From a virus, in IMG/VR virus record IMGVR_UViG_3300010354_012484, positions 1 to 47,259 of that record: a stretch of 47,259 bases of DNA; one strand, 5' to 3'. This document shows, in pieces, positions 1 to 29,494 of this stretch (position 1 is the first letter of the stretch; each line of letters starts with the position of its first letter). The position numbers were made by a program, and so were the translations under genes. The notes under the pieces were generated by a model. It searched no databases, was not told where the DNA came from, and saw only the letters and a program-made list of their open reading frames with translations.

Positions 1-219
1 AAAGTCCCAACAACTGCGACAACCAATTGGTCTTTCATTGTTTAAAAGAGCTCTGCGTAGTTCTCTAGTGGCTGTGCTATTCCAAATTTCCTGTAGAGTT
101 TCTTTTCTATAATCACCTATCCTATCAGGATAACGCCAACAGGCACTGACTTTGCCTTCCTGCTTGATATTTTGATGTATGAAAGGCATTATACAAAATG
201 TCTTGTTCTGATCAAACAT
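1..219 (-). CDS. Radical SAM protein with N-terminal twitch domain (partial, cut by window edge)
   Basis: Only the first 73 codons lie in the window; the rest is beyond the left edge. The start ATG is at 219-217 and overlaps the end of the upstream radical SAM gene by 8 bases. The visible part matches the N-terminal half of its neighbours: a TFCIMPF opening with Cys9, a later Cys27, a segment resembling LQEIWNS, and a closing GCRSCWD pair (Cys67, Cys70). In the neighbouring genes the same Cys pattern precedes the CxxxCxxC radical SAM motif by about 50 residues, so that motif should lie just outside. It is probably the sixth radical SAM gene of the cassette. The family is inferred from the N-terminal domain only. 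Confidence 0.75.
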   Translation of the reverse strand, partial: MFDQNKTFCIMPFIHQNIKQEGKVSACWRYPDRIGDYRKETLQEIWNSTATRELRRALLNNERPIGCRSCWDF

Positions 220-1618
220 CTCTGAATATGTCCTTCATTTCAGGAAAGGTATTATAAAAGTCTGTGCCTCTCTGCTGATCTAATAATTCAAGATATTCTT
301 TGGTTTCAGGTAACCTCATAGACCAATCTTCACTCTTGGCAAATCTTACCATGCCTCTCAGTCTGCTTATGCCATAGTCTGCACTGAGCCACTTCTCTTG
401 AGTTACCTTGCCTTGATACCAGCTAGGTACACCCAGATGCCAATTTGCTGTCCACCATGGAATAAATTCCTCATATTTGGCTTCGATCTCATCTTTGAAC
501 CATGCAGGTAGAACCTTGACATTTAGATGTGGAGGATGATAGACAAAGTGATAGTTGATGCCACCTGCACCAAAAGGCCACATGTTGACTTTTCTGAATC
601 CGTGCTCCAGTTTCCATTTCAAGAATTCAGGAATGTAATAGATATTAAGAGCCTGAACTGCACAGGCAATGGTAACTTCTACATTGTCGGTGGTTTCTTC
701 ATCTAATTGACGAAATGCTTCCAGATTGCGGCTCCATTGGCTAGGATATCGAATATAGTCATTACGTGCTCCTACTGCGTCTACACTGTAGTGAAAACGT
801 ACCAGTTTAAAATGACTCCATAGCTCGAAGAGATCTTCACGCCATTCAACACCGTTACTGTTATAGCGTATTTCCATGTCCTTGGCATAGCCTTGACGTA
901 TACATTCTTCTAGTATGTCATAGTGTTCTTCAATGATTAAGGGCTCACCACCGGCAAAGTAGAGCTGCTTCATGTTAGGCACTTGTTCCCATAACTGTTC
1001 CCAAAATTTTGGATTATTCTTATGCCAATTATAGCTGGCTCCGTTAATCTGCCCTTTGTTATCCCACTGCATGGTTTCTTTAAGACTGACGTTTTTAAAA
1101 TTAGGATATAATTTCTGCCATTCTGGAATCCATAAACTGCTGTCATGCGGACTGCACATTACACAGGCCAGATTACACTTGGTACCAAAACGCATGTCAA
1201 TATAAGTGACCTGTGGTGGCACACTGCCATCTTCTGCTGTATTAGCTATGAGTTGATCTAGATCAACACGTTCACTCCAATATCTAGTTTCCCATTGACG
1301 CTTGCTTTGGTGTCCAGCACGTTCCTCTTTATAGCATTTAGTACAACTGGGAGGTTCTTCCCCGTTGAGCATTTGCAATCTTACATTTTTCATATATTGA
1401 TTGTTCCAGCTGGTCAAAAAGTCAGTGACGTTTAAGTTAGCTGGCTTGCCATCTTCCTGTTTAAGAACTCCAATTTCTCCGCCATGGCTCTTATCGTTAG
1501 TAGGACCCACACTGCTGGCATTGGCAGTACAGCATACACGCATATGACCGTTGGGTCTAGTACTTAGATGCACCCAAGGTAGTATGCAAAATGTTTCACT
1601 AGGTAATTTTTTGCTCAT
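212..1618 (-). CDS. Twitch domain-containing radical SAM protein, 468 aa
   Basis: Radical SAM enzymes use a [4Fe-4S] cluster to split S-adenosylmethionine and start radical chemistry. The cluster motif CNLACVMC is at residues 148-155. The N-terminus carries a second Cys set that probably binds an auxiliary Fe-S cluster: TFCILPW (Cys11), RVCC (Cys29/30) and SCTKC (Cys92/95), the N-terminal twitch arrangement. A YFAGGEPL segment fits the SAM-binding GGEP motif. The C-terminus has QQRGTDFYNTFPEM, which recurs in the 426 and 456 aa neighbours. The start overlaps the upstream stop in an ATGA. The substrate is unknown; the context is a cassette of radical SAM and glycosyltransferase-like genes downstream of tail genes. 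Confidence 0.9.
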   Translation of the reverse strand: MSKKLPSETFCILPWVHLSTRPNGHMRVCCTANASSVGPTNDKSHGGEIGVLKQEDGKPANLNVTDFLTSWNNQYMKNVRLQMLNGEEPPSCTKCYKEERAGHQSKRQWETRYWSERVDLDQLIANTAEDGSVPPQVTYIDMRFGTKCNLACVMCSPHDSSLWIPEWQKLYPNFKNVSLKETMQWDNKGQINGASYNWHKNNPKFWEQLWEQVPNMKQLYFAGGEPLIIEEHYDILEECIRQGYAKDMEIRYNSNGVEWREDLFELWSHFKLVRFHYSVDAVGARNDYIRYPSQWSRNLEAFRQLDEETTDNVEVTIACAVQALNIYYIPEFLKWKLEHGFRKVNMWPFGAGGINYHFVYHPPHLNVKVLPAWFKDEIEAKYEEFIPWWTANWHLGVPSWYQGKVTQEKWLSADYGISRLRGMVRFAKSEDWSMRLPETKEYLELLDQQRGTDFYNTFPEMKDIFRDV

Positions 1619-2688
1619 TGATTAATCACTTCTATTTTAAATTTTCCAACTGGCAGCTCTGTTATAGTTGATTTGCTACATATTTCTGTACATCTAGATA
1701 CTCTATCTTTAGAATCTGTACCATGACATTGACTATTCCAACTGTCTACTAGATCTTCTTGGTAGAATTTATGATTGATAATATCTGCTATAGACTTTAG
1801 ATTAGCATTATTCCAATCAGGATCGTTGTATGTATTTAACAGTCTATCCGTGATAAAATTTACCTTGGTAGTGTCAGTGACTAAAAATCCATTATGTATA
1901 AAACAACAGGGCCATATACGCCCATCATGACCGACAAAATACATCTTCTGTTCCAGAGTATTGCACAGTATAGGCTCATGAACCCTAGGTTCAATTTCTC
2001 TAAGATAATTTTCTAGACTTCCGGGGCCTGGCTTTATTTTGTTATCTAATAATTTTTTCTTTTTGATATTGTCCAGTCCGATCTTAGTAACAAGACTGCG
2101 ATCATGTCTCTGCTGAAACATCACAAAACCCATTTGCCTACTAAGAGCACGAGCTTGGTCAGCTTGATGCTGATTCCAAGGAAATATCAAATACTGCCAC
2201 ATAGCTCGTCCTTGTTCACTGATAAATGCACGAGCATTGGCCATTATTTTTTTCCAATCACTGCCCTGTCTATAGATATGATTAGTATCTTCCATTCCGT
2301 CTATGCTGAAATGCACCAGATGTTCTTGATGTTTTTTTAGTACTGTGGCTAGCTTTTTAAAGTATGTTTCATTACGCAGACTGGCATTGGTGTGAATTAC
2401 TATGTAATACTGTTTGACTTCCAAGGCCATTTCTAACATTGTTAGAAAATCTGGATGTGTTAAGGGATCGTCGATGGTACCGCAAAATTCTAGCTTGTTC
2501 ACAGTGGCAAACTCTGGAGCACTGATAATTTTTAAAAAAGTTTCTTTGCTGAGTAGTTCATTTTTATTGATAAAACTTTTAGCTGTATTGAATGTAGATA
2601 GATCTGTTCTCACACAGCCTAGACAGAGTAGGTTGCAGTTCGAGCTAAGTTCGAACTGAATCGCAGCAGGATCATTAAGATATTCCAT
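1615..2688 (-). CDS. Radical SAM protein with C-terminal Cys-rich (SPASM/twitch-like) domain, 357 aa
   Basis: The radical SAM motif CNLLCLGC is at residues 18-25, right after the start, so this type lacks the N-terminal twitch of its neighbours. Its auxiliary Cys residues are C-terminal instead: an ILCNT Cys, then IWPCCF, then the cluster CHGTD...RCTEIC, resembling SPASM/twitch domains that bind extra Fe-S clusters. The central part (IDGMEDTNHIYRQG, RAFISEQGRA) closely matches the next gene upstream, indicating tandem duplication. The start follows the upstream stop by 3 bases and its own stop overlaps the downstream start in an ATGA. Such C-terminal domains occur in peptide- and sugar-modifying radical SAM enzymes; the substrate here is unknown. 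Confidence 0.88.
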   Translation of the reverse strand: MEYLNDPAAIQFELSSNCNLLCLGCVRTDLSTFNTAKSFINKNELLSKETFLKIISAPEFATVNKLEFCGTIDDPLTHPDFLTMLEMALEVKQYYIVIHTNASLRNETYFKKLATVLKKHQEHLVHFSIDGMEDTNHIYRQGSDWKKIMANARAFISEQGRAMWQYLIFPWNQHQADQARALSRQMGFVMFQQRHDRSLVTKIGLDNIKKKKLLDNKIKPGPGSLENYLREIEPRVHEPILCNTLEQKMYFVGHDGRIWPCCFIHNGFLVTDTTKVNFITDRLLNTYNDPDWNNANLKSIADIINHKFYQEDLVDSWNSQCHGTDSKDRVSRCTEICSKSTITELPVGKFKIEVINQ

Positions 2689-2691
2689 GTT

Positions 2692-3867
2692 CTAGTTAAA
2701 CTGTTCCTTAAAAGCGTCAAATTTAGTGCCGCAGGTCTTGGCACACATTGCACTTTTACCTTCAGCACAGCTAGATTTATTCCAGCTGTCGGGAAGAACA
2801 CGCTGAAAGAAATCACCTTCAATAATTTCTTCCACTGTGTATTTTTTAGCATCTAATTTATCTAGGCCAACTTGATCAATGAATCGCCAAATCTGAGCAC
2901 CTTTATTCTTGTAGTACCAAAGATACATCTGTCCTGCTGTCCAGCAACAAGGCTGTAGGATTCCTTCTGCTGTGACATAGACATTTTTTTCTTTGGCAAC
3001 TTTACAGTCGATGACTGCGTCATCCCAAATGCGTTCTACTGGCTTTTTCTTGTCAGGATCTGTGCTAAATTTCTGCATACCTTGTACTTGATCTAGATTT
3101 TCTATCTTGACAATATTATCTACTGTGATTTTATTCTCGTCATCTTTTTTAGTTATTTCTTTAAGTTTGTCCAGGACTGAGTTACGATATTTAGGATTAG
3201 TAGGAGCCTGTAATAGAGTAGTCAGTCCTTTACGATTCTGTGCTTGATGCGACTCTTTGGTAGCAGCTTGATTATTACTGAAAAAACGTGCAGACTTTTT
3301 ATATTGAAAGCGTTCAAAGCCCATGTCTTTGCTGAGCTGCTCGGCTTCATCAACCTGATGTTCATTGTGTGCAAATACTATATAGTCCCATCGTGCTCTA
3401 CCGCCCGCTGCTATGAAAGCCCGAACATTCTCCATGATCTTAGTCCATACTGTGCCTTGTCTATAGAAATGATTGGTATCTTCAAGGCCGTCTAGACCAA
3501 ATATTACATAGCCGTTGCCATTAATAATTTCTGCAAGTTCTGCCCACCATTCAGGTTTTTTCATACCACCATTAGTGTGCATACTGAGATTAATATCAGC
3601 ATTGTGCTTTCTAAAATAACGAAATGCTTCTAGCGTATCTTTGGCACTGCCTGGATCTCCATAATTACCACAGAGGTAGATTCGTTTAAGTTGTCTTAGA
3701 AAGCTAGGAGTAAAAATTGTCTTAATGTCGTCAATATCAAGTTCTCTGTTTTTTAAATGAGGATTAACTTCTCCCCCATTTAGGTTACGTGAACACATGG
3801 GGCAACTGGCATTACATACTTCAGTCATCTCCAAGTGAACTGTTTCTATCTCATGATAATGATACAC
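2692..3867 (-). CDS. Radical SAM protein with C-terminal Cys-rich (SPASM/twitch-like) domain, 391 aa
   Basis: This is a paralogue of the 357 aa gene just downstream. The motif CNASCPMC is at residues 18-25, the same positions as in the sister protein. Shared central motifs include LDGLEDTNHFYRQG and VRAFIAAGGRARWDY. The C-terminal auxiliary Cys set is DCKVAKE, QPCCW and then SCAEGKSAMCAKTC. It differs by an insertion of about 30 residues rich in Lys/Asp before the C-terminal domain. Its start shares a base with the stop of the methyltransferase-like gene (TAATG), so translation is probably coupled. It is a radical SAM enzyme of unknown substrate; pairing of two paralogues could mean they act on two sites or form a heterodimer, which is inference. 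Confidence 0.88.
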   Translation of the reverse strand: MYHYHEIETVHLEMTEVCNASCPMCSRNLNGGEVNPHLKNRELDIDDIKTIFTPSFLRQLKRIYLCGNYGDPGSAKDTLEAFRYFRKHNADINLSMHTNGGMKKPEWWAELAEIINGNGYVIFGLDGLEDTNHFYRQGTVWTKIMENVRAFIAAGGRARWDYIVFAHNEHQVDEAEQLSKDMGFERFQYKKSARFFSNNQAATKESHQAQNRKGLTTLLQAPTNPKYRNSVLDKLKEITKKDDENKITVDNIVKIENLDQVQGMQKFSTDPDKKKPVERIWDDAVIDCKVAKEKNVYVTAEGILQPCCWTAGQMYLWYYKNKGAQIWRFIDQVGLDKLDAKKYTVEEIIEGDFFQRVLPDSWNKSSCAEGKSAMCAKTCGTKFDAFKEQFN

Positions 3868-4724
3868 TATTTTTCTCCATAGATCATAAACCGTGTGTAT
3901 TTGGTCAATCTAGTTTCACCTCTATAGAATATATTAGTCATTTTGTATTTTTGTAAAAACTCTGCTATATCTTCAGCATAATTAACATGATCATCTTCTA
4001 CAGGACTGCTATTACTTTGAATTAGTACTCTTGTACCTGGTCTTAGTCTATGAAACCATTCGTCGGTCATATGTTCTGCGCTGGTATTTATGATTAGGCT
4101 GGGTTCCAAGATTTTATCACGGAACATGATGTTTCCGTCGGTGTCTATACATTTGTTAATGTCTTTGTTTAAGACCAAGGCCTCGGGATTGATGATCTTT
4201 ATCAACTCATTGTGCTTTTTGTCAGGATCTATAGAAAATAATTTACTGTAATTAATATCTTTGAGATAGAGGCTATGATGTGTTAGCCAGCCGCCTATTA
4301 GAAGAATATGATTAAAGTTTAGATCATATTTGTACAATACTTCAGCCAACCATATTTTACTTTGAACTTGGCTTTTTCCGAATATCACACTCAAGATATT
4401 CTCATAGCCCAATTCTAACATTGCATTTAACTTCTCAATGAGATCATCTTTAGGCCAAATTGATCGCATAGTATTCATTATGTCTACAGTAGACACAGTA
4501 TTTTTAGCACAGACTGTGGTATAAAAAGTCAAGCGATTTTCTCTAGATTTTTCAGGATACTTTTCATAGTCATCTACCATTAGTAATTTTAGACTCCATG
4601 GCTTGCTGTCCTGACCACTGTAGCATAGATTAATAATATTTCTAATGAATTTTTTCTTTTCCACATCGTTGACAAAATGAAAGTACTTTTCTATACCAAA
4701 CAACCATGTAATATCGTTACTCAT
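3867..4724 (-). CDS. Class I SAM-dependent methyltransferase-like protein, 285 aa
   Basis: The second half looks like a Rossmann methyltransferase. It has a beta-strand/loop HILLIGGWLTHHS in the motif I position (with GGW rather than a canonical GxGxG), an acidic strand end FSIDPD that could bind the ribose of SAM, SLIINTSAEHM in the motif IV position, and RVLIQSNSS further on. The first half is helical with no recognised motif. It sits between radical SAM and glycosyltransferase-like genes with 1- and 8-base overlaps, so it probably belongs to the same pathway, for example methylating a sugar or a protein. The assignment rests on motif pattern only and no target residue can be proposed. Confidence 0.6.
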   Translation of the reverse strand: MSNDITWLFGIEKYFHFVNDVEKKKFIRNIINLCYSGQDSKPWSLKLLMVDDYEKYPEKSRENRLTFYTTVCAKNTVSTVDIMNTMRSIWPKDDLIEKLNAMLELGYENILSVIFGKSQVQSKIWLAEVLYKYDLNFNHILLIGGWLTHHSLYLKDINYSKLFSIDPDKKHNELIKIINPEALVLNKDINKCIDTDGNIMFRDKILEPSLIINTSAEHMTDEWFHRLRPGTRVLIQSNSSPVEDDHVNYAEDIAEFLQKYKMTNIFYRGETRLTKYTRFMIYGEK

Positions 4725-5400
4725 TATCTAATCCTAACCATTCCTTAAATTCTTTTTCAATCCAGTCAAAGTCATTGACCACTGAATAATCCGCATTATC
4801 TTTGGCTGCATAGGCTACTCCGGCTCTTGCACCTTGTAGACTAAAATATCCAAATCTAGCTTCAATACCTGCTTCACACCACATGGACAATCTTTCGTGA
4901 CTTTCTTGGTCATTATTATTTTTATTAAGTCCTGCACTGAGTTTGACTGCTTCTCTAAATGCTGTACGCCATGTACTAAAAGGTGTATAATTAAATCTAT
5001 GTTCGCTGGCAAGAACATTGACCTTAATATAAGCATCTGCAAGTGTAGTAGTCATGTCTGGTCGATCAAGTCTATCTAAACTAAAACAGTCACGACTAAA
5101 AAGTTTTATGCCTCCATGACCATATACCAAGCCATTAACAGGATTCTTAGCTCTGAATACTGCTACGCTTTTCGGCTTGAGGTCTACCTGCTGATTAAAA
5201 CGAAAATTATCTAATATCCAGCAGTCGCCATCAACCACATAGAATCTATCCTCTTGACAGTGATCAGCAATGGCCTTATGACTTTGAAATATAGTGCCTA
5301 TAGATTCAAATGCCACAGCCCATTGGGCAACTTGACTGCATCTATACCAATTGTCTTGAGCATTTAATTCATCTTTATATAAAAAATATACAGGTATCAT
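4717..5400 (-). CDS. Glycosyltransferase-like protein with DxD motif, short paralogue, 227 aa
   Basis: This is one of four paralogues in the cassette. Shared features are a strand followed by an acidic loop (VYFLYKDE), FYVVDGDC with a DxD-type motif at Asp57-Asp59, NPVNGLVYGHGGIKL, and FSTWRTAFREAVKL. The DxD after a hydrophobic strand is what metal-dependent GT-A glycosyltransferases use to hold a nucleotide sugar. This copy has lost the GVKGF-AH motif of the other three (here SHKAIADHC), so it is the most diverged. It overlaps its neighbours by 4 and 8 bases. The glycosyltransferase call is inferred from the DxD context; the acceptor is unknown. Confidence 0.55.
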   Translation of the reverse strand: MIPVYFLYKDELNAQDNWYRCSQVAQWAVAFESIGTIFQSHKAIADHCQEDRFYVVDGDCWILDNFRFNQQVDLKPKSVAVFRAKNPVNGLVYGHGGIKLFSRDCFSLDRLDRPDMTTTLADAYIKVNVLASEHRFNYTPFSTWRTAFREAVKLSAGLNKNNNDQESHERLSMWCEAGIEARFGYFSLQGARAGVAYAAKDNADYSVVNDFDWIEKEFKEWLGLDNE

Positions 5401-6386
5401 GATGGTAAACTAAATCCGTATAAAGGTAAAGCACTTTGATTAAGCAGTGCTGGCCAGCCAATTCCTTTATTGGGACTGAAATGCACATGTTTAAACCAAA
5501 TACTCTGTTCTGCATCAAACTCAGCTAGAGGTAGACCCAGCTGTCTTTTTAGATCAGTCATTAGTTTGTGACTATGACTTTCTAGATACTCTCCATGATT
5601 TAATACCTGTAGTTGTTCCTGCCACATCGAGTCAAACCAATCATAGTCAGCAATCTTAATATGATCAAAATTTTCAATATAGAGTAAATAGGCAGCTAGA
5701 CGTGCTCCATAGATTACCCAATTACCATTTTCTACATCGCGGCCAATGGTCATCCAGATTAGCCAACGTGCAAAATTCGCCGGGTACATACGGTTTTTAA
5801 AATCTTCAGGCAGTAGTTTAGAGCCTTGATCAAGGCCCATCTTGATGCCTTCTCGGAATCCGGCTCTAAAAGCCTGCTTGGCACTGGCATTATTGACTAT
5901 GGTTCCATAGGTATTGTTCATCAGTTTATAATTTTTAGCATCCCAACAAAAATCTATATTATTTTTTGAATCACCGGAATCTGCTGCTTCGTGGCTACGC
6001 ATACTGACCACATGTGGAGAATACCACAATTTGACGCTGCCATTGCCATAGACTAGACCATTGACAAGATTTCTACTGCTCCAACTTAGAGTAGCTTCCT
6101 CGATCTCATCTGTCAGTTCAATGGCTCTATACCATATCTTTTTATCAATCTTACAGTCTCCATCTACTGTAAAAAATCTCTGGCTATCAGCTACACTAGC
6201 TGCCTGTTTGTGTGCAGCATCAAATCCCTTAACACCATGAACTCGATGCACCAGTGCTGGATTAGGATGATTGGCCAATAAGAACTCATAGTTTTCGTCT
6301 GCATTAGGCTCATCATAACTGATGAAAACTACAGGAAATTTTTTCAGTTCTATTATATTAGCCTGCGTAGAATTTGTTGAACTCAT
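5397..6386 (-). CDS. Glycosyltransferase-like protein with DxD motif, long paralogue, 329 aa
   Basis: Family motifs are VVFISYDEPNADENY at the N-terminal strand, HRVHGVKGFDAAH, FFTVDGDCKI (Asp75-Asp77), RNLVNGLVYGNGSVKLW and FRAGFREGIKMG. It is the same long type as the 323 aa gene at 9.8-10.7 kb, sharing SHEAAD, NIDFCWD and a C-terminal extension with FDHIKIADYDWFDS. The GT-A-like role is inferred from the DxD motif. The start overlaps the previous gene by 29 bases and the stop overlaps the next start in an ATGA. The N-terminal 15 residues (STNSTQANIIELKK) precede the family's usual first strand, so the native start could be slightly different, though no closer ATG exists. Confidence 0.55.
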   Translation of the reverse strand: MSSTNSTQANIIELKKFPVVFISYDEPNADENYEFLLANHPNPALVHRVHGVKGFDAAHKQAASVADSQRFFTVDGDCKIDKKIWYRAIELTDEIEEATLSWSSRNLVNGLVYGNGSVKLWYSPHVVSMRSHEAADSGDSKNNIDFCWDAKNYKLMNNTYGTIVNNASAKQAFRAGFREGIKMGLDQGSKLLPEDFKNRMYPANFARWLIWMTIGRDVENGNWVIYGARLAAYLLYIENFDHIKIADYDWFDSMWQEQLQVLNHGEYLESHSHKLMTDLKRQLGLPLAEFDAEQSIWFKHVHFSPNKGIGWPALLNQSALPLYGFSLPS

Positions 6387-7107
6387 TTTTTGTCCATTCT
6401 AAATCATTAATCTGTCTAAGTTTATCATGATCCCTGGCATGCGCTAGAGCATACGACTTGCCGTAATTAGCACCATCTATAGCGTAGGATCCATAGAGTC
6501 TATCTAATCCCTGAGTACACCAAACGGTCAATCTATCTTGTGATTCTTTATAGTAGCGGTCAATCAAGTCTTGATCATAGTTTAGCTTGTGTTTAATTGT
6601 TTGATCATCTAGATTCATTACCAATTTAACTGCTTCCCTAAAGGCGCTTCGCCATGTATTAAACTCATCATAATTAAATGCTGTTATATTACTTATTTCT
6701 TCAAACGCTTTTATAGGGAGACCAAACCCCGTGGTAAAATCAATAGCATTGGCTGTTCTTTGAAGTAGACCTTGTTTAGGTAAAATTTTGACACCCCCAT
6801 GACCGTAGACTAGATCATTTATGGGATTAATGCTGTTCCAGATGCAGATCATTTCAGATTGCGGAATACCCCACCAGGTTCTATACTTACTAGGAGTAAA
6901 TGCAAAATTAAAACTGTCTAAAATGTGTGCATCAGAATCGACTACATAAAAGTTATTGGTCAAGCTGCGACTGGCACAGGCCTGATGTGCTTCTACAAAA
7001 CCCTTAACACCATTGACTCGTCGAGCGTGAGGAGCCTTGGCTAACAACAGTTTATAGTTTGCATCAGCATAAGGCTCATTATAACTTAGAAAAAATACAT
7101 CTAGCAT
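6358..7107 (-). CDS. Glycosyltransferase-like protein with DxD motif, short paralogue, 249 aa
   Basis: I chose the ATG at 7107, which overlaps the upstream stop as ATGCTAG and starts the protein MLDVFFLSYNEP, in line with the paralogues. A longer reading from a TTG at 7146 adds 13 residues and overlaps more. Motifs are FFLSYNEPYADANY, RRVNGVKGFVEAH, FYVVDSDAHI (Asp57-Asp59), NPINDLVYGHGGVKI and FNTWRSAFREAVKL. These suggest a GT-A-type sugar transferase, by inference. It ends with a WTKNEFNKFYAG tail similar to WIEKEFKEWLG in the 227 aa paralogue, so these two form the short subgroup. Confidence 0.55.
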   Translation of the reverse strand: MLDVFFLSYNEPYADANYKLLLAKAPHARRVNGVKGFVEAHQACASRSLTNNFYVVDSDAHILDSFNFAFTPSKYRTWWGIPQSEMICIWNSINPINDLVYGHGGVKILPKQGLLQRTANAIDFTTGFGLPIKAFEEISNITAFNYDEFNTWRSAFREAVKLVMNLDDQTIKHKLNYDQDLIDRYYKESQDRLTVWCTQGLDRLYGSYAIDGANYGKSYALAHARDHDKLRQINDLEWTKNEFNKFYAG

Positions 7108-8381
7108 TTGATCAATGAATCTAATTCCGGAAATGTCTGCCGCCAATCTGTTTTTCTCTGCTGATCCAGTATGCTGTTAAGTTCTATAAATTTCTCTAGG
7201 CCTGATTCTTGATATTCTTCGCTGTCATAGTATTCAAACAGTTTTTCAAACACACTGGTATCAACATAGGTGGGTAGAAATTTCAGTTTGGCATGTGATT
7301 GTTTTAATAGTTCTACTATGTTCTTTCTCATGATCCTAGGCCAAATTGTAGTCCTCATCATGGCAGGATTATCTAAAAATATAGGATACCATCTTATAGG
7401 TCTAGTCTTCGATAGACCGTCTAGATAATGCCAAATTCTATCAATTGATCTAAGATTATAGGCATTGACCACTGTGTAAAAAACCAAATTAACATTGTCA
7501 AGTTTTGCTATAGTCTCTACATTGGAACTAAATTCTTTCCAATCTAGTGGATAGCGTATGTAATGTGCCTGATCCTCTGTTCCATCAATACTGATCTGTA
7601 TTTCGTTGTTGGGGAACTGAGTCAGTAGGTCGATTAGTTCGCTGTCTGCTGTAGTACCATTGGTGGTAAAACTGACCAAACAATTGGTATTCTTAGTGTC
7701 AATCAGATTTCTTAGCAGTGTTCTATTTTCTTTTATCATAGTAGGCTCGCCGCCTGTGATATAGACTCTTTTCAGACCGGCAGCCACAGTTTGAATATTA
7801 TTTTTGTAAACATCAGTTTTAAACCAATGGTTAATAGCAGCGGGAATCTGTCGCTCAACTGACCATATAGTTTGATACTGATGCTTGGCAGGCAGGTTAT
7901 CTAAGATTGCAAGTTTTTCCTGATTGACACGACTGGAACTATAACCCCAGCAGGAGTTGCAGGCTAGATTACAGGTATTACCTAATCTAAGTTCCAAGCT
8001 GGCCAACTGCTTGACTGGTACACGACCATTGGTCAAAAACTGATCAATATTATCTGCTATTGTTTTATTGTTTTCGTAGATAGAGTTTGATGTAGTTCTA
8101 CTGCTACTACCGGATAATTCTTCATGTCTATAACAGTCTTTACACTCTTTCACTGGTTTACCAGTCAGCATGTTCTGTCGCACAGTCTGCATATGATCAC
8201 TGTTCCATATACTGTCTATACTGTCATGACCTAGATTATAGTCCGAGCCGTTGTCTTTTTTGATATGGTCGTTTTCTCTTATATTACAGCAGAGCTTGAC
8301 ACTGCCGTCAGTATTACTGTTCAGATTAAAGAATGGATAGATACAGAATGTATCAGAAAGATTTGAATATTTGTTAACCAT
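7101..8381 (-). CDS. Twitch domain-containing radical SAM protein, 426 aa
   Basis: The radical SAM motif CNLACNSC is at residues 137-144, preceded by LELRLGNT as in the other copies. The N-terminal auxiliary Cys set is TFCIYPF (Cys13), KLCC (Cys31/32) and ECKDC (Cys80/83). YITGGEPT is the GGEP motif. The C-terminus ends QQRKTDWRQTFPEL. The overall plan is the same as the 468 aa protein, with low enough similarity to suggest different substrates. It overlaps the upstream gene by 8 bases and the downstream glycosyltransferase-like gene by 7. The substrate is unknown. Confidence 0.9.
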   Translation of the reverse strand: MVNKYSNLSDTFCIYPFFNLNSNTDGSVKLCCNIRENDHIKKDNGSDYNLGHDSIDSIWNSDHMQTVRQNMLTGKPVKECKDCYRHEELSGSSSRTTSNSIYENNKTIADNIDQFLTNGRVPVKQLASLELRLGNTCNLACNSCWGYSSSRVNQEKLAILDNLPAKHQYQTIWSVERQIPAAINHWFKTDVYKNNIQTVAAGLKRVYITGGEPTMIKENRTLLRNLIDTKNTNCLVSFTTNGTTADSELIDLLTQFPNNEIQISIDGTEDQAHYIRYPLDWKEFSSNVETIAKLDNVNLVFYTVVNAYNLRSIDRIWHYLDGLSKTRPIRWYPIFLDNPAMMRTTIWPRIMRKNIVELLKQSHAKLKFLPTYVDTSVFEKLFEYYDSEEYQESGLEKFIELNSILDQQRKTDWRQTFPELDSLIKC

Positions 8382-9744
8382 CGGTCTCGCAGGTTTCTAA
8401 GAAATGTTTAAGTTCGGGAAAGACTGAGACAAAATCTGTACCGCGTCGACGATCATATTCTCTAAACCATGCGGCAAAATCTCTATAACCTTCTCTCAGT
8501 CGTTGCTCACTGTAGTGAGTTGTCTCCATGTACTTGACCACACGATAGAACTTTTCGTATTCTAGCTCGCTGAACTTATATCTATCAGTATCGTCTAGAT
8601 TCTGCTTGATAAAATCTAGGTGCTGATACATATAAGGCATGAATTCTTCTTTGGGAAGAATATTCATATCATACTGTAAAGGTTCTTTTAGATAGGGAGT
8701 ATCAAATCTGACTCGTTGCCATTTGTTTTGATTGTCATGATTATAACGCTTTCTCCATTCTAAAATTTTAACCAATAGTTTAGAAAAATTTGGCACTGTG
8801 AGAAGATTAAAGGTAATCATAAATGTTATAGGCAGATTAGTCTTGGTTAGATATGTGTCAAAATTTCTTTCCCATATTTCAAGATCCAGGCCTGTTCTAA
8901 TATATTCTGCCTGTGGCCCCCAAGTATCCATGCTGGTGAATATTTTAAAGTCCTTGATCTTCTTATCGGCGATTAGATTATTAACCTTGTCAGTGAGTCT
9001 GTCCAAGAGTATAGGTTTTATGCCAAAGTTACTGTTGATATTCAGTTCTAGGTTGGGTAAAGGATTCTTGTCAAGATCATCTAGCAGCCTCCATGTACTC
9101 TGCTGTAGCAATGGTTCTCCGCCCGTTATACGCAGTATGGTCAAGGTCTTACTTACTTCAGGCCACCATTGCCACCATGCATCCACATAAGGATTTGATT
9201 CTTCTTCATAGATTTTAAAATAGTCAATATCACATCTATGATTATTGACCATGGTATACGGACCGTGTTTTTCTATTTCCTTATAGTAACTGCTGCTGGC
9301 CTTGGGATAACAGTAGCCACATTTGAAATTACACTCATTACCAAAGCTGATTTCAATGTACTGCGGATTAATGTTTTGATCCCAGGGACCGTTTTTGATC
9401 TGTTCGAATCGATCAGCAGTGTAAATTGTGCTGTTTCTTTCTTTTCTATCTGATATGAGATCATCGCCAAGAGCTTCGATATTCCAGCAGTATTGACAAC
9501 CCAAGGGCTTTTCTCCTTTAAGCATGGCAGCACGTTGTGTCTTTTTTTCCCAAGTATTATGCAATGCACTTGGATTGTTTTTGATTTCTTCTAAGGGTAT
9601 GCGATGAGGAGGTGGGTGATAGCAGCTATGTGTTTCTCCAGTCTGTAGATAAATCGTGACATGATGCCATTTAGCCATACAAAACGTCGGACTGATTTCA
9701 TTCATGATAGGAATGAACTGCTGTATTCTTGCTTTATCCTGCAT
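8374..9744 (-). CDS. Twitch domain-containing radical SAM protein, 456 aa
   Basis: The radical SAM motif CNFKCGYC is at residues 138-145 within YIEISFGNECNF, and LRITGGEPLL is the SAM-binding GGEP motif. The N-terminal auxiliary Cys residues are TFCMAKW (Cys22), SCYHPPP (Cys41) and GCQYC (Cys83/86). Unlike the 426 and 468 aa proteins it has a single Cys rather than CC in the middle position. The C-terminus has RRRGTDFVSVFPEL. It lies 11 bases after the upstream glycosyltransferase-like gene and overlaps the next radical SAM start by 8 bases. It is a radical SAM enzyme of unknown substrate. Confidence 0.9.
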   Translation of the reverse strand: MQDKARIQQFIPIMNEISPTFCMAKWHHVTIYLQTGETHSCYHPPPHRIPLEEIKNNPSALHNTWEKKTQRAAMLKGEKPLGCQYCWNIEALGDDLISDRKERNSTIYTADRFEQIKNGPWDQNINPQYIEISFGNECNFKCGYCYPKASSSYYKEIEKHGPYTMVNNHRCDIDYFKIYEEESNPYVDAWWQWWPEVSKTLTILRITGGEPLLQQSTWRLLDDLDKNPLPNLELNINSNFGIKPILLDRLTDKVNNLIADKKIKDFKIFTSMDTWGPQAEYIRTGLDLEIWERNFDTYLTKTNLPITFMITFNLLTVPNFSKLLVKILEWRKRYNHDNQNKWQRVRFDTPYLKEPLQYDMNILPKEEFMPYMYQHLDFIKQNLDDTDRYKFSELEYEKFYRVVKYMETTHYSEQRLREGYRDFAAWFREYDRRRGTDFVSVFPELKHFLETCETDG

Positions 9745-9755
9745 AAAATAATTTC

Positions 9756-10727
9756 CTAGTTTATGGTATTGTCTACGTGATCTTCACGAACCATGGCTCC
9801 TAGTCTTGGAGGATTAATAAAACTTTCTTTGAAAAATCTGCTACCATGTGAATCTAATTCAGCTATTTCTAAGCCCAGTATGCTTCTTAATTCCTCGCCC
9901 AGCATGTGTATTTCACTCAGTAATTTTTCATGACTGTAGGCCCATCCTGTGCTGTTACATCTAGCTGAATCTCCTTCAAATTTGGGCTGCACCTTTTCAC
10001 GCCAGAATTGATCATGCCAATCAAAATCTTTAACGGTTTTAAAATCATATTTGTCTCTGGCACAATTAGCTAGAAAAGCTCCTAGCCTTGTACCAAACAT
10101 TGCCCATAGACCGTTTTCTACATCAGCTCCTACACTGGCCCAAACCAACATACGTTTGTAATTTCTATCATAGACACGCTGTTTAAGATATCTAGGATCT
10201 ACTACTATACCCTTGTCCAAGAGTAATTTAACACCTTCCCTAAATCCTGCACGATAGGCCTGATAGGCGCTGGCATTGTTATGCACATCACTATAAATAT
10301 TGTTCATTTGAAAATAGTGTATGTCCCAGCAGAAATCAACCTGTGATTTGTCATCCTCGGCGGCCTCGTGTGTACGCATCTGCTCTACTACGTGTTTTGG
10401 CCACATTTTAACACCGCCGTTGCCATAAACCAGACCGTTGACTAGATTCTTTGCTGCCCAGCTGATAGTGTCATGTTTGCCTATTTTACTCATGTCAACT
10501 GATATGGTAAAAAATTCATCACGTACGATATTATCAGCATCAATGGTGATAAATCTATCTGTTTCTGATTGTGCTGCTGCTGCCTTATGCGCTGCGTCAA
10601 AACCTTTGACACCATGCACACGCTTGGCCCATGGTGCTTTTTCTAAGAGATCTGCATAGTTGCGATCAGCATTAGGTTCATCATAGCTTAAAAACACAAT
10701 GTCAAAATTTGTAATAGGAATTATCAT
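9756..10727 (-). CDS. Glycosyltransferase-like protein with DxD motif, long paralogue, 323 aa
   Basis: This is the clearest member of the four-gene family: IVFLSYDEPNADRNY, KRVHGVKGFDAAHKAAA, FITIDADNIV (Asp63-Asp65), KNLVNGLVYGNGGVKMW, THEAAEDD, QVDFCWD and YRAGFREGVKLL. The N-terminal strand, DxD and GNGG loop fit a GT-A nucleotide-sugar transferase, although I do not recognise a named CAZy family. It is the first of the four to be transcribed and is separated from the others by two radical SAM genes. The start overlaps the upstream unknown gene by 26 bases. The acceptor is unknown. Confidence 0.58.
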   Translation of the reverse strand: MIIPITNFDIVFLSYDEPNADRNYADLLEKAPWAKRVHGVKGFDAAHKAAAAQSETDRFITIDADNIVRDEFFTISVDMSKIGKHDTISWAAKNLVNGLVYGNGGVKMWPKHVVEQMRTHEAAEDDKSQVDFCWDIHYFQMNNIYSDVHNNASAYQAYRAGFREGVKLLLDKGIVVDPRYLKQRVYDRNYKRMLVWASVGADVENGLWAMFGTRLGAFLANCARDKYDFKTVKDFDWHDQFWREKVQPKFEGDSARCNSTGWAYSHEKLLSEIHMLGEELRSILGLEIAELDSHGSRFFKESFINPPRLGAMVREDHVDNTIN

Positions 10728-11688
10728 GTACGTTCTCTATATGTATATGGGCAAGATCTGTTATGACCTTAACTGGTTTATTAGTTTTCAAATCATATGA
10801 AAACATATTATAATTATCTAGTATTCCTGAATTAAAATTCACAACGTCAATAATTTCACTGGGATCAAATGCATTATAGATATAGAATACTATACGATCC
10901 TTATGAATGAACAAGTGATCATGTCGATTCAAGACACTCTGAAAGACCAATTGATTATTCGTCTGCTTGTACAGTATAGCAGGTTTATAGTCAATGTCAA
11001 GTACTTGAGGTTCATATGCTTGATCACTAACTGATATATTTAGATCATGATCATAGTGTATAAATTCGAAACGATTAAAGTTTTCAGCACTGTCGGGTAG
11101 CCATTGGCAATTAAAACTAAGCTCATGAACGTCCACCAGCTTTCTAATATTCAAACTTAGCTTGTCGTAGAGTCTTGCTCGTTCGTTGCCATCTATACAG
11201 AATATTTCTAGGTATTGAGGCAATCGTGATATCTGAGTTTCAGTAGTTAATTCATTGGTGTAGTCTTTCTTGAAATTTTCCCAGATAAAGTTAGCACGTA
11301 TCTTTTTGGTGATGACATCACAGTCAAGATGTATGTATTGAGACTGATTCTTGTAGCCAAACACATAGTCAAATTCGCCTTTTCTAGTGTATCGATCCCT
11401 GATCAGCTGCCGTGTCTTGGTTTTATAGTCGTATTTGATACGTAGATTGCTAAGACTTAGTTTATTATTAAAAAGTCTATCAATAAGATCATTGCTTTGA
11501 GCTTGAATAATGCCAAACCTTGGATCATCATGATTTTCATCTTGCGGGCTAATACCTACGACATTGTAGGTCAGCTTGTCATAGTGAACATAATAGGTGG
11601 TATCAGCCTGCTCTCGCTGTCGAAGAATGGTCTTTTGTATGTCAAATTCGCCATCTTCATCTAGAATTAACTCAGGTTCTTCATTCAT
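10702..11688 (-). CDS. Unknown protein, 328 aa
   Basis: I do not recognise a family. The first 30 residues are very acidic (EEPELILDEDGEFD) and contain no signal peptide. The rest looks like a soluble beta-rich protein with many Tyr, Asp and Asn residues, for example FDYVFGYKN, YIHLDCDVITKK and FEFIHYDHDLNISVSDQ. No membrane segment or Cys cluster is visible. Its start overlaps the glycosyltransferase-like gene upstream in an ATGA. The beta-rich, Asp/Asn/Tyr-rich make-up would suit a virion surface or carbohydrate-binding protein, but this is a guess. Confidence 0.7.
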   Translation of the reverse strand: MNEEPELILDEDGEFDIQKTILRQREQADTTYYVHYDKLTYNVVGISPQDENHDDPRFGIIQAQSNDLIDRLFNNKLSLSNLRIKYDYKTKTRQLIRDRYTRKGEFDYVFGYKNQSQYIHLDCDVITKKIRANFIWENFKKDYTNELTTETQISRLPQYLEIFCIDGNERARLYDKLSLNIRKLVDVHELSFNCQWLPDSAENFNRFEFIHYDHDLNISVSDQAYEPQVLDIDYKPAILYKQTNNQLVFQSVLNRHDHLFIHKDRIVFYIYNAFDPSEIIDVVNFNSGILDNYNMFSYDLKTNKPVKVITDLAHIHIENVHDNSYYKF

Positions 11689-12515
11689 TGATACTTGTTA
11701 TTTAGATTGGTTATAACGTTGTCGTTGAGCCAATCAGGCCTATGATAGTTGACTAAGCCGCTTTGAATAAAATTTTCAACCTTAAATTCTCCGGTTTCAT
11801 TAACCCAATATCCAAGAAATTCACTCCAAGGTCTTGTATTCCAATTAAGGCTGTTAGGACGATTTTCCTGTTTGGTAAGATCTATACACTTGACAAAGTC
11901 GAACTTATTTATTTTATAACTAGATATAGTGTAAAGAAAACTCATCATCCATTCAGGCCAAACATATTTAGGAAAGTTTGGCACGCTTTTTTGGTTCTTA
12001 AAGTAACGAATGAATTCCGCTTGATCATAGTGAGTGCCAAAAAGAAGTCCCAAACCTAGAATACTTTCAGCTCCACGACCCCGGTTGTAAAATACAGCAT
12101 TCAGTATTGATGTATCCGAAAAAGTTCTTTTTTCAATGGCTCCGTGATAGTAACAGTCTGGATCAATGACTGTGTTATTAAAATTAAATCTATTCTTAGG
12201 TAATACTACCGCACTCATTCCTAGCAAATTTTCCCATGTAGCCGGATTAAAATGTGTTAGTATCTGATTAGGAGACAGAACTATACTGGCATTATATGGA
12301 CTTTCTAGGCAGGACTTAAAATAAAGCGGTGTTTCGTAATAATTTTCCAAGAGTATACGTTTATCAAAGCCGTGCCATAGATCTGAACCTAGATACTCTG
12401 TAGTTACTACAGATATAGGTCTATCATGATCATGATATCGAATAGTCTTAGCCAAGAGGTTAACCTGCTTGAGTGTGTCATAATTGGCCTGTGTTATCAA
12501 GTATCCCTCACTCAT
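11685..12515 (-). CDS. Glycosyltransferase-like protein, 276 aa
   Basis: The N-terminus (GYLITQANYDTLKQVNLLAKTIR, then PISVVTTEYL) has the layout seen in the next gene upstream and in GT8-like sugar transferases: a strand, a helix with a run of small residues, then a second strand. The DxD region is not clear here (SIVLSPNQIL lies where the sister gene has MMDVDYLIGN), so catalytic metal binding may be lost. Conserved-looking aromatic segments follow, such as YVWPEWMMSFLY and LNWNTRPWSEFLGYW. It overlaps the upstream and downstream genes by 8 and 4 bases. Function is inferred from weak similarity to its neighbour. Confidence 0.45.
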   Translation of the reverse strand: MSEGYLITQANYDTLKQVNLLAKTIRYHDHDRPISVVTTEYLGSDLWHGFDKRILLENYYETPLYFKSCLESPYNASIVLSPNQILTHFNPATWENLLGMSAVVLPKNRFNFNNTVIDPDCYYHGAIEKRTFSDTSILNAVFYNRGRGAESILGLGLLFGTHYDQAEFIRYFKNQKSVPNFPKYVWPEWMMSFLYTISSYKINKFDFVKCIDLTKQENRPNSLNWNTRPWSEFLGYWVNETGEFKVENFIQSGLVNYHRPDWLNDNVITNLNNKYQ

Positions 12516-13404
12516 AGGCCAGTCTCTTAAAGTCGTAGTAGTGTCTTAGTATGGCTAGCTTATTCATAATATGAACGTTTTCATTTTTGATTCGACTACA
12601 GATATTTTTCCATAATTCACTGGGATCCGGACAGACCATGATATAATCATTGAGGTCTTTAACCTGAGCGATGTCATCAATCTGTTCGCTAAATCGCATG
12701 ACTTTGCCAGGTAGTTCAGTGATAATATTACCCTGCATGTGTCCGTTTAGAATATGGGCTGCAATGCTGACCGCATAGTCTGTTCTATAAAGTACACCAG
12801 GAAATTTATATAACCACTTGTAATAGTTGTAGTTATTTTTTACATGTTCCCATATGCCAAAAAATAACTGAGCTAATTCACTGTCACTGCGCCAGTAGAC
12901 CACAGTACTCCACCACATGTCAATACCATCAGGATTTAATTTCTGTTCCCATATCCTGGGCTTGTAGTTACGAACACTGATTGCATTTTTATACATAGCT
13001 ACTTCATAATCTGTATCAAATATAGCATCAAGAGTATTGTTGCCAATCAGATAATCTACATCCATCATGATGGTTTGATTATAAGGAGTTCTTTCAAAGA
13101 TACTGTGTTTGTTTTTATTATTAAATTGAGTGGTAAATTCATGCCATGGACTGTCCCTGTGTGCTCTGGTATTCTGCTCGTGTTGCACATCTTCTACAAT
13201 GATTTTGTCAAAAGTTTCGGCTGCTAGGTCAACAGGAATTTCACGCTCAAGAGCTGTCAATGTAGGATAGTCTGTCAGTAAGGTGACATGATTGGTCTGC
13301 ATGTACTTTTTTACAGTTCTTGCAGTGAGAATAGCTAGTTTTTCATAGGCTATTTTTTCATTATTATAGGCAATTAACAGTATGCCTTTTTCAAAATTTT
13401 TCAT
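12508..13404 (-). CDS. Glycosyltransferase-like protein with DVD motif, 298 aa
   Basis: The protein opens with a nucleotide-sugar-transferase-like strand and helix (GILLIAYNNE, LAILTARTVKKY, HVTLLTD) and has IMMDVDYLIGN with a DxD at Asp115-Asp117, which would bind metal and nucleotide sugar. Later segments WWSTVVYWRS and YRTDYAVSIAAHIL resemble the acceptor-side part of GT8-like enzymes. It starts at a TAATG junction with the 123 aa gene and overlaps the 276 aa relative downstream. It is distinct in sequence from the four-member DxD family nearby. The substrate is unknown. Confidence 0.55.
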   Translation of the reverse strand: MKNFEKGILLIAYNNEKIAYEKLAILTARTVKKYMQTNHVTLLTDYPTLTALEREIPVDLAAETFDKIIVEDVQHEQNTRAHRDSPWHEFTTQFNNKNKHSIFERTPYNQTIMMDVDYLIGNNTLDAIFDTDYEVAMYKNAISVRNYKPRIWEQKLNPDGIDMWWSTVVYWRSDSELAQLFFGIWEHVKNNYNYYKWLYKFPGVLYRTDYAVSIAAHILNGHMQGNIITELPGKVMRFSEQIDDIAQVKDLNDYIMVCPDPSELWKNICSRIKNENVHIMNKLAILRHYYDFKRLAYE

Positions 13405-13775
13405 TACTGGTCTTGAACAATTTCTTCTTTAAAATCTACTAAATTTTTGGTGTCACGATGGCGTTTTAATTTTTCTGCTTCGCTGTAGTATTCATTCAGT
13501 GCTTCGGTATAGGCACTCAGTAATTTAGCATGAAAATCTGGTAAATTGTTGACCATCACAGGATTTTCATTATCGTCTAAAAACACATAGCGATCTACTT
13601 CCAAATCAACTAATTGTTTAACAAAGACTATCAGGTCTATTCTAGCTGTAAATAGTGCGTTTGAATAGCCGATGGTCAGCATGGTACTCATTCGCTGTTT
13701 TAGATTAAGTTTTTGATTGTTTAGTGTAAGTCTGTAATTACTAAAGTCTAAGGCAGCTTTTAGCTTGTCATCCAT
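13404..13775 (-). CDS. Unknown small protein, 123 aa
   Basis: A soluble, mostly helical protein with no recognised motif. The N-terminal part has repeated Leu/Asn residues (LTLNNQKLNLKQRM), the middle is hydrophobic (LIVFVKQLVDLEVDRYVFLDD) and the C-terminal third is a charged helix (ALNEYYSEAEKLKRHRD). The upstream gap to the fibre gene holds a GGAG ribosome binding site and a late-promoter-like octamer (13806-13813), so this gene may begin a separate late transcript covering the radical SAM cassette. It could be a small structural or chaperone protein; function unknown. Confidence 0.65.
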   Translation of the reverse strand: MDDKLKAALDFSNYRLTLNNQKLNLKQRMSTMLTIGYSNALFTARIDLIVFVKQLVDLEVDRYVFLDDNENPVMVNNLPDFHAKLLSAYTEALNEYYSEAEKLKRHRDTKNLVDFKEEIVQDQ

Positions 13776-13805
13776 TCAGAACTCCGATTATATTAGCATA
13801 TAATC

Positions 13806-13813
13806 TATTTATG
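13806..13813 (-). promoter_or_regulatory. Late-promoter-like octamer CATAAATA
   Basis: On the minus strand the sequence reads CATAAATA, one base from the T4 late promoter octamer TATAAATA recognised by gp55. It ends 31 bases before the ATG of the 123 aa gene, leaving room for the GGAG ribosome binding site. It would drive the cassette from 13.8 kb leftward. The call rests on motif and position only. Confidence 0.5.
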
Positions 13814-13828
13814 ATTGACAAATAGTAA

Positions 13829-15837: not shown

Positions 15838-15857
15838 CTGCGAATTCCTTTATCGTA

Positions 15858-15865
15858 TATTTAGC
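15858..15865 (-). promoter_or_regulatory. Late-promoter-like octamer GCTAAATA (variant)
   Basis: The minus-strand sequence is GCTAAATA, followed by a short AT-rich stretch and an AAAGGA ribosome binding site before the ATG of the 306 aa gene. It matches the last six bases, TAAATA, of the T4 late octamer. The same order (TAAATA, then about 8 bases, then AAGGA) precedes the 193 aa gene and gp6. Confidence 0.4.
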
Positions 15866-15871
15866 AAATTT

Positions 15872-16453: not shown

Positions 16454-16470
16454 TTGTTTTCCTTATACTA

Positions 16471-16478
16471 TATTTACT
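16471..16478 (-). promoter_or_regulatory. Late-promoter-like octamer AGTAAATA (variant)
   Basis: The minus strand reads AGTAAATA followed by TAGTATAAGGA, nearly the same as upstream of gp6 (AGTAAATAGACTATAAGGA). It precedes the 193 aa gene by 17 bases. The repeated arrangement supports a functional late promoter plus ribosome binding site, though the first two bases depart from the T4 octamer. Confidence 0.45.
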
Positions 16479-16483
16479 TGAAT

Positions 16484-29269: not shown

Positions 29270-29494
29270 ATGAAAAACAAAAATGACTGGAGGGGCTCTC
29301 GACAGCCCGACACAGTGAACATAGTCTGCGAAGCTAATGGCAAGGTCATGCCTGCTGACGTAATCAGCCTCAATGAACGAATGCTGGTAGCTGCTATATC
29401 CGGTGTGAAAATTACACTGGTCAGCAAAAAAGAGAATGGTGTCTACGAAGGCCGCATGGGCGGCCTTGATTTAGTCTATGTAAAAAAGGCCTAA
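29270..29494 (+). CDS. Unknown small protein, 74 aa
   Basis: Preceded by a TGGAGAA ribosome binding site about 5 bases before the ATG. It is beta-rich with no recognised family: TVNIVCEANGKVMPADVISL, MLVAAISGVKITLVSKK and YEGRMGGLDLVYVKK. The strand lengths suggest a small barrel. It runs convergently into the HNH gene with a 4-base overlap of stop codons. No promoter is clear in the short gap to gp25. Confidence 0.6.
   Translation: MKNKNDWRGSRQPDTVNIVCEANGKVMPADVISLNERMLVAAISGVKITLVSKKENGVYEGRMGGLDLVYVKKA

Follow-up and report, generated by a model that had tools for sequence, protein, structure and literature searches.

Radical SAM (rSAM) chemistry is usually linked to bacterial cofactor or natural-product pathways. 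Among phages, the T4-like Campylobacter phages CP220 and CPt10 encode 11-12 rSAM proteins; in CP220, five rSAM genes, an amidinotransferase gene and two nucleotide-sugar-transferase-like genes are packed together (gp80-gp88), and the five-rSAM module of CP220/CPt10 was termed interchangeable (Timms 2010, PMC2853527). In pelagimyophages, the host recognition cluster contains rSAM cassettes and glycosyltransferase (GT) genes in a hypervariable tail-fibre region (PMC7029224). In the 183-kb T4-like genome TARA_ERS488813_N000010, 12 rSAM genes occur together with a gene for an A-type Fe-S carrier and are read in its description as Fe-S metabolism (Nishimura 2017, PMC5332604). Mycobacteriophages are reported to encode GTs whose targets are proteins of the capsid and the tail tube (Freeman 2023, cited in PMC12363180).

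The cassette and its genomic setting

The window, the whole stretch of 47,259 nucleotides analysed here, is a fragment of a large T4-like phage. The gene of a gp6-like baseplate wedge protein (25372..28827, minus strand; phrog_10646, 873 bits) marks a T4-like myovirus, and the nearest isolates are the large myoviruses SCTP-2, Atu_ph07 and PA5oct. The rSAM cassette occupies positions 1-9744 of the minus strand and comprises five complete rSAM genes and a sixth that is truncated where the contig ends: rF (1-219), rA (212-1618), rB (1615-2688), rC (2692-3867), rD (7101-8381) and rE (8374-9744). They are interleaved with genes of predicted GTs (GT-A-like fold, invariant DxD) and a putative class I methyltransferase. 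The tight packing with overlaps of a few bases, described earlier in the sequence-only reading, extends over 1-13404, where neighbouring ORFs overlap or are separated by at most 11 bp. A scan of little power found no minus-strand terminator-like site in 1-16500. The island exceeds 1-9744: related contigs contain 1-18 Radical_SAM matches each, and many of their rSAM genes fall past the break point of the window contig.

The cassette run adjoins a tail/virion block of the same strand (13404..16453; s1, gyg, tf and t2), in which tf and t2 match PHROG structural or tail families or unknowns. The arrangement recurs in relatives, where s1 plus gyg/tf, and likewise the cassette gene u3, were found upstream of rE in 35/36 loci. 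Since the cassette lies on the same strand and in the same run as the tail genes, its expression is probably late. A (GYG)n virion protein (13829-14917) was considered as an rSAM substrate and rejected; the repeat is present in the window and G001 and partly in G010, and absent from the other relatives compared. As the first substrate idea, its lack of conservation counts against the explanation preferred below.

Six distinct radical SAM genes

As judged by profile models and motifs, all six predicted proteins belong to the radical SAM superfamily. The NCBIfam model NF033640 ('N_Twi_rSAM'; curated cut-off 170 bits) matched rA (468 aa), rD (426 aa) and rE (456 aa) over the whole length with 435, 311 and 320 bits, respectively. 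The proteins rB (357 aa; 56.6 bits) and rC (391 aa; 50 bits) aligned with this model by the rSAM part alone, remained below the cut-off and are not counted as N-terminal twitch members. The 73-aa N-terminal part of rF matched profile positions 1-71 with 65.6 bits and the SPASM model PF13186 with 42.7 bits. In G001, a full-length 419-aa N_Twi rSAM occupies the equivalent position after rA, and its start shares 86% identity with rF, so the count of six rSAM genes is real. The gathering score of PF04055 or PF13186 was reached by four of the six proteins (rF, rA, rC and rD), with rB and rE falling slightly short. PF04055 itself was over the cut-off for rA, rC (44.9 bits) and rD; rE stayed below it (21.1 vs 29.5), and rB, though matched by other rSAM models, had none with PF04055 at E values up to 0.1.

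Each complete rSAM gene encodes exactly one CxxxCxxC motif (at C18 in rB), and this radical-cluster motif is invariant among the orthologs of rA, rB, rC and rE. In the orthologs of rA and rE, all seven cluster cysteines (four N-terminal auxiliary and three radical) are 100% conserved, as are five C-terminal cysteines in those of rB (242/261/262/333/337) and rC. The four proteins rA, rB, rC and rE thus carry the auxiliary cysteines of SPASM/twitch enzymes, and an Fe-S cluster is predicted there. The earlier assignment of five complete genes and a partial one, with an N-terminal twitch set in rA, rD, rE and rF and a C-terminal SPASM-like set in rB and rC, agrees with the profile matches, the invariant cysteines and the full-length rF relative. 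The curated-model scores, the invariant cysteines and strong purifying selection also exclude chance or spurious ORFs.

The most conserved core member is rA, with 232 viral relatives, the best 80 of which are 70-92% identical; in G003, G005 and G007 it is better conserved than the baseplate protein (71-75% vs 36-41% identity). It forms a single-copy clade (92 loci, support 1.0), as do rB (25 loci, support 0.999) and rE, and rC is near-single-copy (115 genes in 114 loci, support 0.968). The viral scan with rB returned zero matches, though rB orthologs sit at the expected place, which shows that the peptide-pattern search has its limits. Viral relatives numbered at least 581 for rE (best 80, 73-81% identical) and nine for rD (best seven, 57-64%); the latter form a small clade and, for the most part, adjoin rE and are fused to another rSAM. 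The paralogs of the window share about 20-27% identity over longer aligned stretches vs 57-92% reached by orthologs, which, together with the (near-)single-copy clades of rA, rB, rC and rE, excludes recent tandem duplication. Old single-copy clades, conserved cysteines and low dN argue for distinct retained roles, and the rSAM genes are, by these sequence criteria, predicted to encode old, distinct enzymes.

The search that found the 232 viral relatives of rA found only two cellular contigs, which excludes host DNA or a bacterial island. At least one of the two is phage-like: L105, binned as Neisseriaceae, holds the phage cassette, and of 369 genomes sampled from the class of this bin, only two had an NF033640 match above the cut-off. 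Such virus specificity speaks against auxiliary metabolic genes serving a host cofactor (PQQ or heme), a role that viral rSAM genes have been given elsewhere, as a PQQ gene in Baikal VP_139 (PMC7678222) and, in a proposal termed speculative by its authors, as ahbD in the Baltic (PMC9301287). The PqqE and heme-synthase models scored far below their cut-offs on the rSAM proteins, PqqA was not recognised, and the linked GTs and methyltransferase would be left unexplained, so that a cofactor role seems most improbable.

Predicted glycosyltransferases and methyltransferase, and gene linkage

GT-like genes had also been reported as mixed with the rSAM genes. This stands for g1 (4717..5400), g2 (5397..6386), g3 (6358..7107) and g4 (9756..10727), all on the minus strand and predicted to be GT-A-like, sugar-transferring enzymes of the SYDEPNA family, but the gene mt (3867..4724, minus strand) proved to encode a 285-aa protein with a predicted methyltransferase fold. 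The AlphaFold2 model of mt (pLDDT 92.9) gave 811 Foldseek matches in the PDB at E<=0.001, of which those listed are class I SAM-dependent methyltransferases (best E 4e-7), pointing to a Rossmann-type class I fold; in Pfam mt had no match. The modelled family member, g4 (pLDDT 90.3, pTM 0.89), matched the glycosyltransferases WrtF, TarP/TarS and SunS, its top matches being mostly GT-A with a TM of only about 0.3, and structure matches in BFVD were consistently GT. The gene g2 is 44% identical to g4, g1 and g3 join through the family alignment (the fold of g1 being taken from the family model), and D63 and D65 of the DxD motif are invariant among the 37 aligned members. The ORF of g3 is open to TTG 7146; its start is most likely ATG 7107. 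Most relatives have no N-terminal extension. The moderate fold match and the weak Pfam GT matches of the g genes count against a glycosylation line.

The same minus-strand run continues with u1 (10702..11688) and u2 (11685..12515), which have no assigned family and no match in Pfam or PHROG; homologs of u1 occupy the same place in G001, G002 and G010, and the place of u2 is also conserved in relatives. The next gene, u3 (12508..13404, minus strand), has an invariant D-x-D (D115 and D117 in the family alignment) and appears GT-like by eye alone; its family of 17 members gave no Pfam match. Profile searches of Pfam, PHROG and PDB with the GTs, u1-u3 and mt yielded no confident match, and structure comparison alone helped.

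Phage DNA is decorated in known systems by enzymes of several families, GTs included. The GTs, methyltransferase and rSAM enzymes of the cassette might likewise act on a phage base, and one relative seems, from a look at its sequence, to have QueE/FolE/DpdA-like genes elsewhere. The T4 DNA glucosyltransferases are GT-B enzymes vs the GT-A-like fold predicted here, no base-hydroxymethylating or base-kinase gene was recognised in the cassette, and the cassette sits with tail genes, all of which makes DNA hypermodification very unlikely.

The neighbourhood survey, which the sequence-only reading had set as its refuting test, found the nearest relatives linked to each other and to GT genes, and so did not refute that reading. 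Each scan retained the best 80 loci, so the counts describe close relatives first; some contigs are near-duplicates and the loci are not independent. Among 72 rA-anchored loci, rC lay upstream in 68, a GT was present in 68, and rC, methyltransferase and GT together in 57. The 65 methyltransferase-anchored loci contained an rSAM gene in 60 cases and a GT in 61, and a GT was directly upstream of rE in 79/80 loci (the best 80 of at least 581 relatives). In the GT-anchored sample (n=70), which is least biased toward rSAM, rSAM genes were found in 38 loci and were missing from 32. The methyltransferase occurred in 1/67 rD/rE-anchored loci, and the rE(-rD) module is widespread without the methyltransferase module. 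Relatives also contain single fusion polypeptides of the GT-GT-methyltransferase type (848-1127 aa), a Methyltransf_24-Radical_SAM fusion (L230), rSAM-SPASM double proteins (L110 and L116) and rSAM-rSAM fusions; no rSAM-GT fusion was found among them. The linkage and the three kinds of fusion (GT-GT-methyltransferase, methyltransferase-rSAM and rSAM-rSAM) support multi-step modification. At the same time, the cassette consists of at least two separable modules and is not one indivisible pathway, so the earlier idea of a single shared pathway is only partly supported.

SPASM/twitch rSAM enzymes mostly act on peptides, so a role on sugars is not the default. The rSAM proteins could accordingly be RiPP-like maturases that introduce cross-links, epimers or thioethers into a tail protein, with the GTs acting separately; the rSAM-rSAM fusions without GT domains would fit, as would the weak similarity to SkfB and other peptide maturases. 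Such independence is at odds with the locking of rE to a GT gene and with that of the rA module to both GT and methyltransferase genes. The Gly-Tyr repeat protein lacks conservation, and with no gap above 11 bp in 1-13404 there is no room for a precursor-peptide gene within the cassette, where none was found; an unlinked precursor elsewhere would stay compatible. Peptide maturation therefore seems quite unlikely.

Possible product of the cassette and comparison with known systems

The extended islands of relatives contain genes for NAD-epimerases/dehydratases, an E1-type ThDP pair, a dTDP_sugar_isom domain fused to an FkbM methyltransferase, and a carbamoyltransferase (21/80 rA loci). Among the 18 contigs of cassette relatives covered, five encode MetK and eight an A-type Fe-S carrier, which are rSAM supply genes. 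ORFs marked by eye as 'SGNH?' showed no SGNH domain when scanned with Pfam. Sugar-nucleotide genes are rare outside G002/G010, modules occur separately and rSAM-GT fusions are lacking, observations that count against the explanation given next.

Taken together, the data suggest that the phage uses this widely conserved cassette to make an unusual chemical decoration, which is probably a modified sugar attached to its own tail or to the host surface. Our leading, still tentative reading is a cytoplasmic tailoring line of GTs, methyltransferase and rSAM enzymes, expressed with the tail genes and acting on a tail-fibre or virion protein. In this soluble line, g1-g4 would attach or extend sugars and mt would cap them by a methylation step, after which the rSAM/twitch/SPASM enzymes may act on C-H bonds of the sugar or the attachment residue by oxidation, epimerisation, deoxygenation or cross-linking. 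The products would thus share one substrate, a glycoconjugate on the virion, whose most likely acceptor would be the tail-fibre/virion protein encoded directly upstream, and the finished virion would bear an unusual decoration with an effect on adsorption or protection.

The position beside tail genes fits a host-surface target too. The rSAM enzymes may tailor sugars of a host glycan (LPS O-chain or similar) remodelled during infection, leading to seroconversion or superinfection exclusion. Host-glycan remodelling was proposed for the GTs of the pelagimyophage cluster, which also occur with rSAM cassettes (PMC7029224), and the sugar-nucleotide and carbamoyltransferase genes of relatives are consistent with it. 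A simple hydropathy scan of three islands of 23-50 kb found no convincing membrane segment (two borderline hydrophobic stretches lie in one soluble-type epimerase) and therefore no exporter, flippase or polymerase candidate; moreover, remodelling would pay least at the late stage when the cassette is probably expressed. Host-glycan remodelling is thus possible but doubtful, and we infer that a decoration on a tail protein is more likely than one on a host glycan. Somewhat more doubtful still is the broad idea that large T4-like phages of natural waters maintain a dedicated radical-chemistry glycosylation line, with up to 18 rSAM per contig, making a sugar-derived tail-fibre structure without a known cellular counterpart.

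Hundreds of environmental phage contigs retain ordered rSAM sets next to tail genes. If the virion is the target, post-translational radical chemistry would become part of phage-host recognition. The conserved GT pair with rE makes a minimal unit small enough for expression and testing.

Multi-rSAM T4-like phages are already known, but nothing close to this particular cassette occurs among 50,697 phage records, none of which contains a close relative of rA, rE, g4 or mt; the chemistry is therefore probably undescribed. NF033640 names no function, and rB and rC carry their cysteine domain at the opposite end from its members. The available text on mycobacteriophage virion glycosylation does not mention an rSAM/methyltransferase cassette (PMC12363180), and that on TARA_ERS488813_N000010, compared by description only, does not describe GT/methyltransferase linkage or orthologous clades (PMC5332604). 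The Pelagibacter phage Mosig has MoaA-like rSAMs, an aminotransferase, a carbamoyltransferase and a distant mt homolog. CP220 and CPt10 do not have the GT-mt-rC-rB-rA order; their rSAM proteins are matched distantly by the rB/rC models and not at all by the rA model, and the SYDEPNA GT profile found no match in them. The cassette is thus not a CP220-type module, but the window shares with these phages a T4-like genome with many rSAM genes and sugar-transferase-like genes.

Radical SAM genes and their neighbours

The window is a linear viral record of 47,259 bases with T4-like baseplate genes. Its gp6-like protein matches phrog_10646 (873 bits), and the nearest isolates by this protein are large myoviruses, e.g., Salicola phage SCTP-2, Agrobacterium phage Atu_ph07 and Pseudomonas phage PA5oct. 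Model comparison bore out the six radical SAM (rSAM) genes of the sequence-only reading, all on the minus strand. The products of rA (212-1618), rD (7101-8381) and rE (8374-9744) scored 435, 311 and 320 bits, respectively, against the N-terminal-twitch model NF033640 (cut-off 170 bits). Those of rB (1615-2688) and rC (2692-3867) match only the rSAM part of this model and possess a C-terminal Cys set. The contig ends inside the cassette and cuts rF (1-219), which matches the N-terminal part of the model and shares 86% identity with the beginning of the full-length rSAM following rA in the related contig G001. The cluster cysteines are fully conserved across aligned orthologs. Compared with relatives, dN was 0.07-0.39 and dS was mostly saturated; the three pairs with usable dS (rC, g1, g4) gave dN/dS of 0.07-0.17.

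In a tree of 882 rSAM cores, single-copy clades were formed by rA (92 loci, support 1.0), rB (25 loci, 0.999) and rE (70 loci, 0.967), and the rC clade included 115 genes from 114 loci (0.968). The window paralogs share about 20-27% identity over their longer aligned stretches. The window rSAMs are old, distinct enzymes.

The glycosyltransferase (GT)-like neighbours g1-g4, also pointed out earlier, are here called GT-A-like, on a moderate match. They constitute a single family (37 aligned members, 21 invariant columns including DxD). With the AlphaFold2 model of this family (pLDDT 90), Foldseek retrieved TarS/TarP, SunS and the fucosyltransferase WrtF, at TM about 0.3 and E values from about 1e-3 to 3e-4, as well as viral glycosyltransferases in BFVD. 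The gene mt is predicted to encode a class I methyltransferase by structure comparison (model pLDDT 93). Neither g1-g4 nor mt obtained a Pfam assignment above the cut-off. In the mt homologs of three loci (L083, L068, L049), repeats of about 23 residues, of the LRKAVLEENLHSIFRL type, are arrayed at the N-terminus.

Other genes of the window include an HNH endonuclease (29491-30033, minus), a SegE-type GIY-YIG endonuclease (46688-47116, plus) and, between DNA-metabolism genes, a protein that is GT-A-like by eye (FIDSDIGF; 42508-43416, plus) with no Pfam match. A fatty acid desaturase (PF00487; 30330-31070, minus) and an acyl carrier protein (PF00550; 46234-46491, plus) are possible lipid-related genes. 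The virion-type protein at 13829-14917 (minus) has a Gly-Tyr run with 12 GYG motifs; the run has four such motifs in G001 and some in a G010 fragment, and is absent from its remaining listed relatives.

Linkage and distribution of the cassette

The linkage counts rest on the best-matching loci of each scan, and some contigs are near-duplicates of one another. The viral relatives of rA number 232, and the best 80 of these are 70-92% identical to it. Of 72 evaluable loci, rC and a GT were each present upstream of rA in 68; mt was present in 57, and so was the full set of three. Loci anchored on mt had rSAM in 60/65 and GT in 61/65, and those anchored on the GT family had rSAM in 38/70. For rE, with at least 581 relatives, a GT gene lies directly upstream in 79/80 evaluable loci, usually overlapping, and 35/36 loci with enough DNA have, farther upstream, a tail block consisting of s1 plus gyg/tf; rD relatives mostly adjoin rE. 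The rE module usually lacks mt (present in 1/67 loci). Therefore, the genes travel as two modules, g4-rE-rD and g3-g2-g1-mt-rC-rB-rA-rF, joined in the window. The earlier idea of one multi-step pathway is thus only partly supported.

In three related contigs (G003, G005, G007), rA is 71-75% and the baseplate protein 36-41% identical to those of the window. A comparison with 50,697 phage records gave no match to g4, mt or rE, and to rA only matches at 21-25%. Cellular genomes are nearly devoid of rA relatives (two contigs in the genome collection). One of these, a GTDB MAG contig assigned to Neisseriaceae (L105), carries g4-mt-rC-rSAM-rA and, judging from gene content, looks like a phage contig mis-binned into a bacterial genome.

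Extended islands, fusions and the likely substrate

Fifteen large related contigs contain 4-16 NF033640 matches each (E<=0.001), and Radical_SAM matches number 1-18 per contig in 18 contigs. Between g4 and g3, G002 and G010 encode NAD-epimerases, an E1-type ThDP pair and a carbamoyltransferase (Pfam on G010), with an additional dTDP_sugar_isom/FkbM fusion in G010; Asp_Arg_Hydrox and nitroreductase genes are located close to this interval. The carbamoyltransferase recurs in 21 and Asp_Arg_Hydrox in 19 of 80 rA loci, where the epimerases do not recur. MetK (5/18 related contigs) and an A-type Fe-S carrier (8/18) are also encoded, as might be expected if much SAM and many Fe-S clusters were needed. 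A long rSAM of about 680 aa, the N-terminal 350 aa of which have no domain assignment, is encoded on the strand opposite to the cassette in G001 (167069-169105), G002 (42628-44688) and G010 (58038-60101). QueE-, FolE- and DpdA/TGT-like proteins, recognised by sequence appearance at about 184833-194999 of G001, a close relative, suggest possible 7-deazaguanine DNA modification there.

Fusions provide independent evidence that the cassette products work together: two GTs and mt form a single polypeptide in five loci (L058, L046, L067, L315, L348), Methyltransf_24 is fused to Radical_SAM in L230, and in L110 and L116 alike the Radical_SAM and SPASM stretches occur twice each. Fusions of an rSAM with a GT were absent from the relatives examined for fusions. 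Since sugar transfer, methylation and radical chemistry are linked or fused, and sugar-type genes occur in some relatives, a glycoconjugate is the most economical substrate. A serious rival is remodelling of host glycans by the cassette, as proposed earlier for pelagimyophages (PMC7029224). A simple hydropathy scan of three islands revealed no convincing membrane protein, and no precursor peptide was found in the cassette gaps, all <=11 bp. With neither exporter nor precursor peptide found, the choice tilts towards a cytoplasmic acceptor. We infer that the obvious candidates for such an acceptor would be the tail proteins, whose genes immediately precede the cassette in the same orientation.

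Comparison with described phages

Phage and viral rSAMs have been associated with low-oxygen metabolism (PMC2853527), Fe-S supply (PMC5332604), PQQ (PMC7678222) and, speculatively, heme (PMC9301287). The GT-methyltransferase-rSAM order, the orthologous clades and the fusions are not among the descriptions in the consulted portions of published accounts of multi-rSAM phages. T4-like phages with multiple rSAMs are themselves already on record there: Campylobacter phages CP220 and CPt10 have 11 and 12, respectively (PMC2853527), a T4-like TARA genome has 12 (PMC5332604), and pelagimyophages carry rSAM cassettes (PMC7029224).
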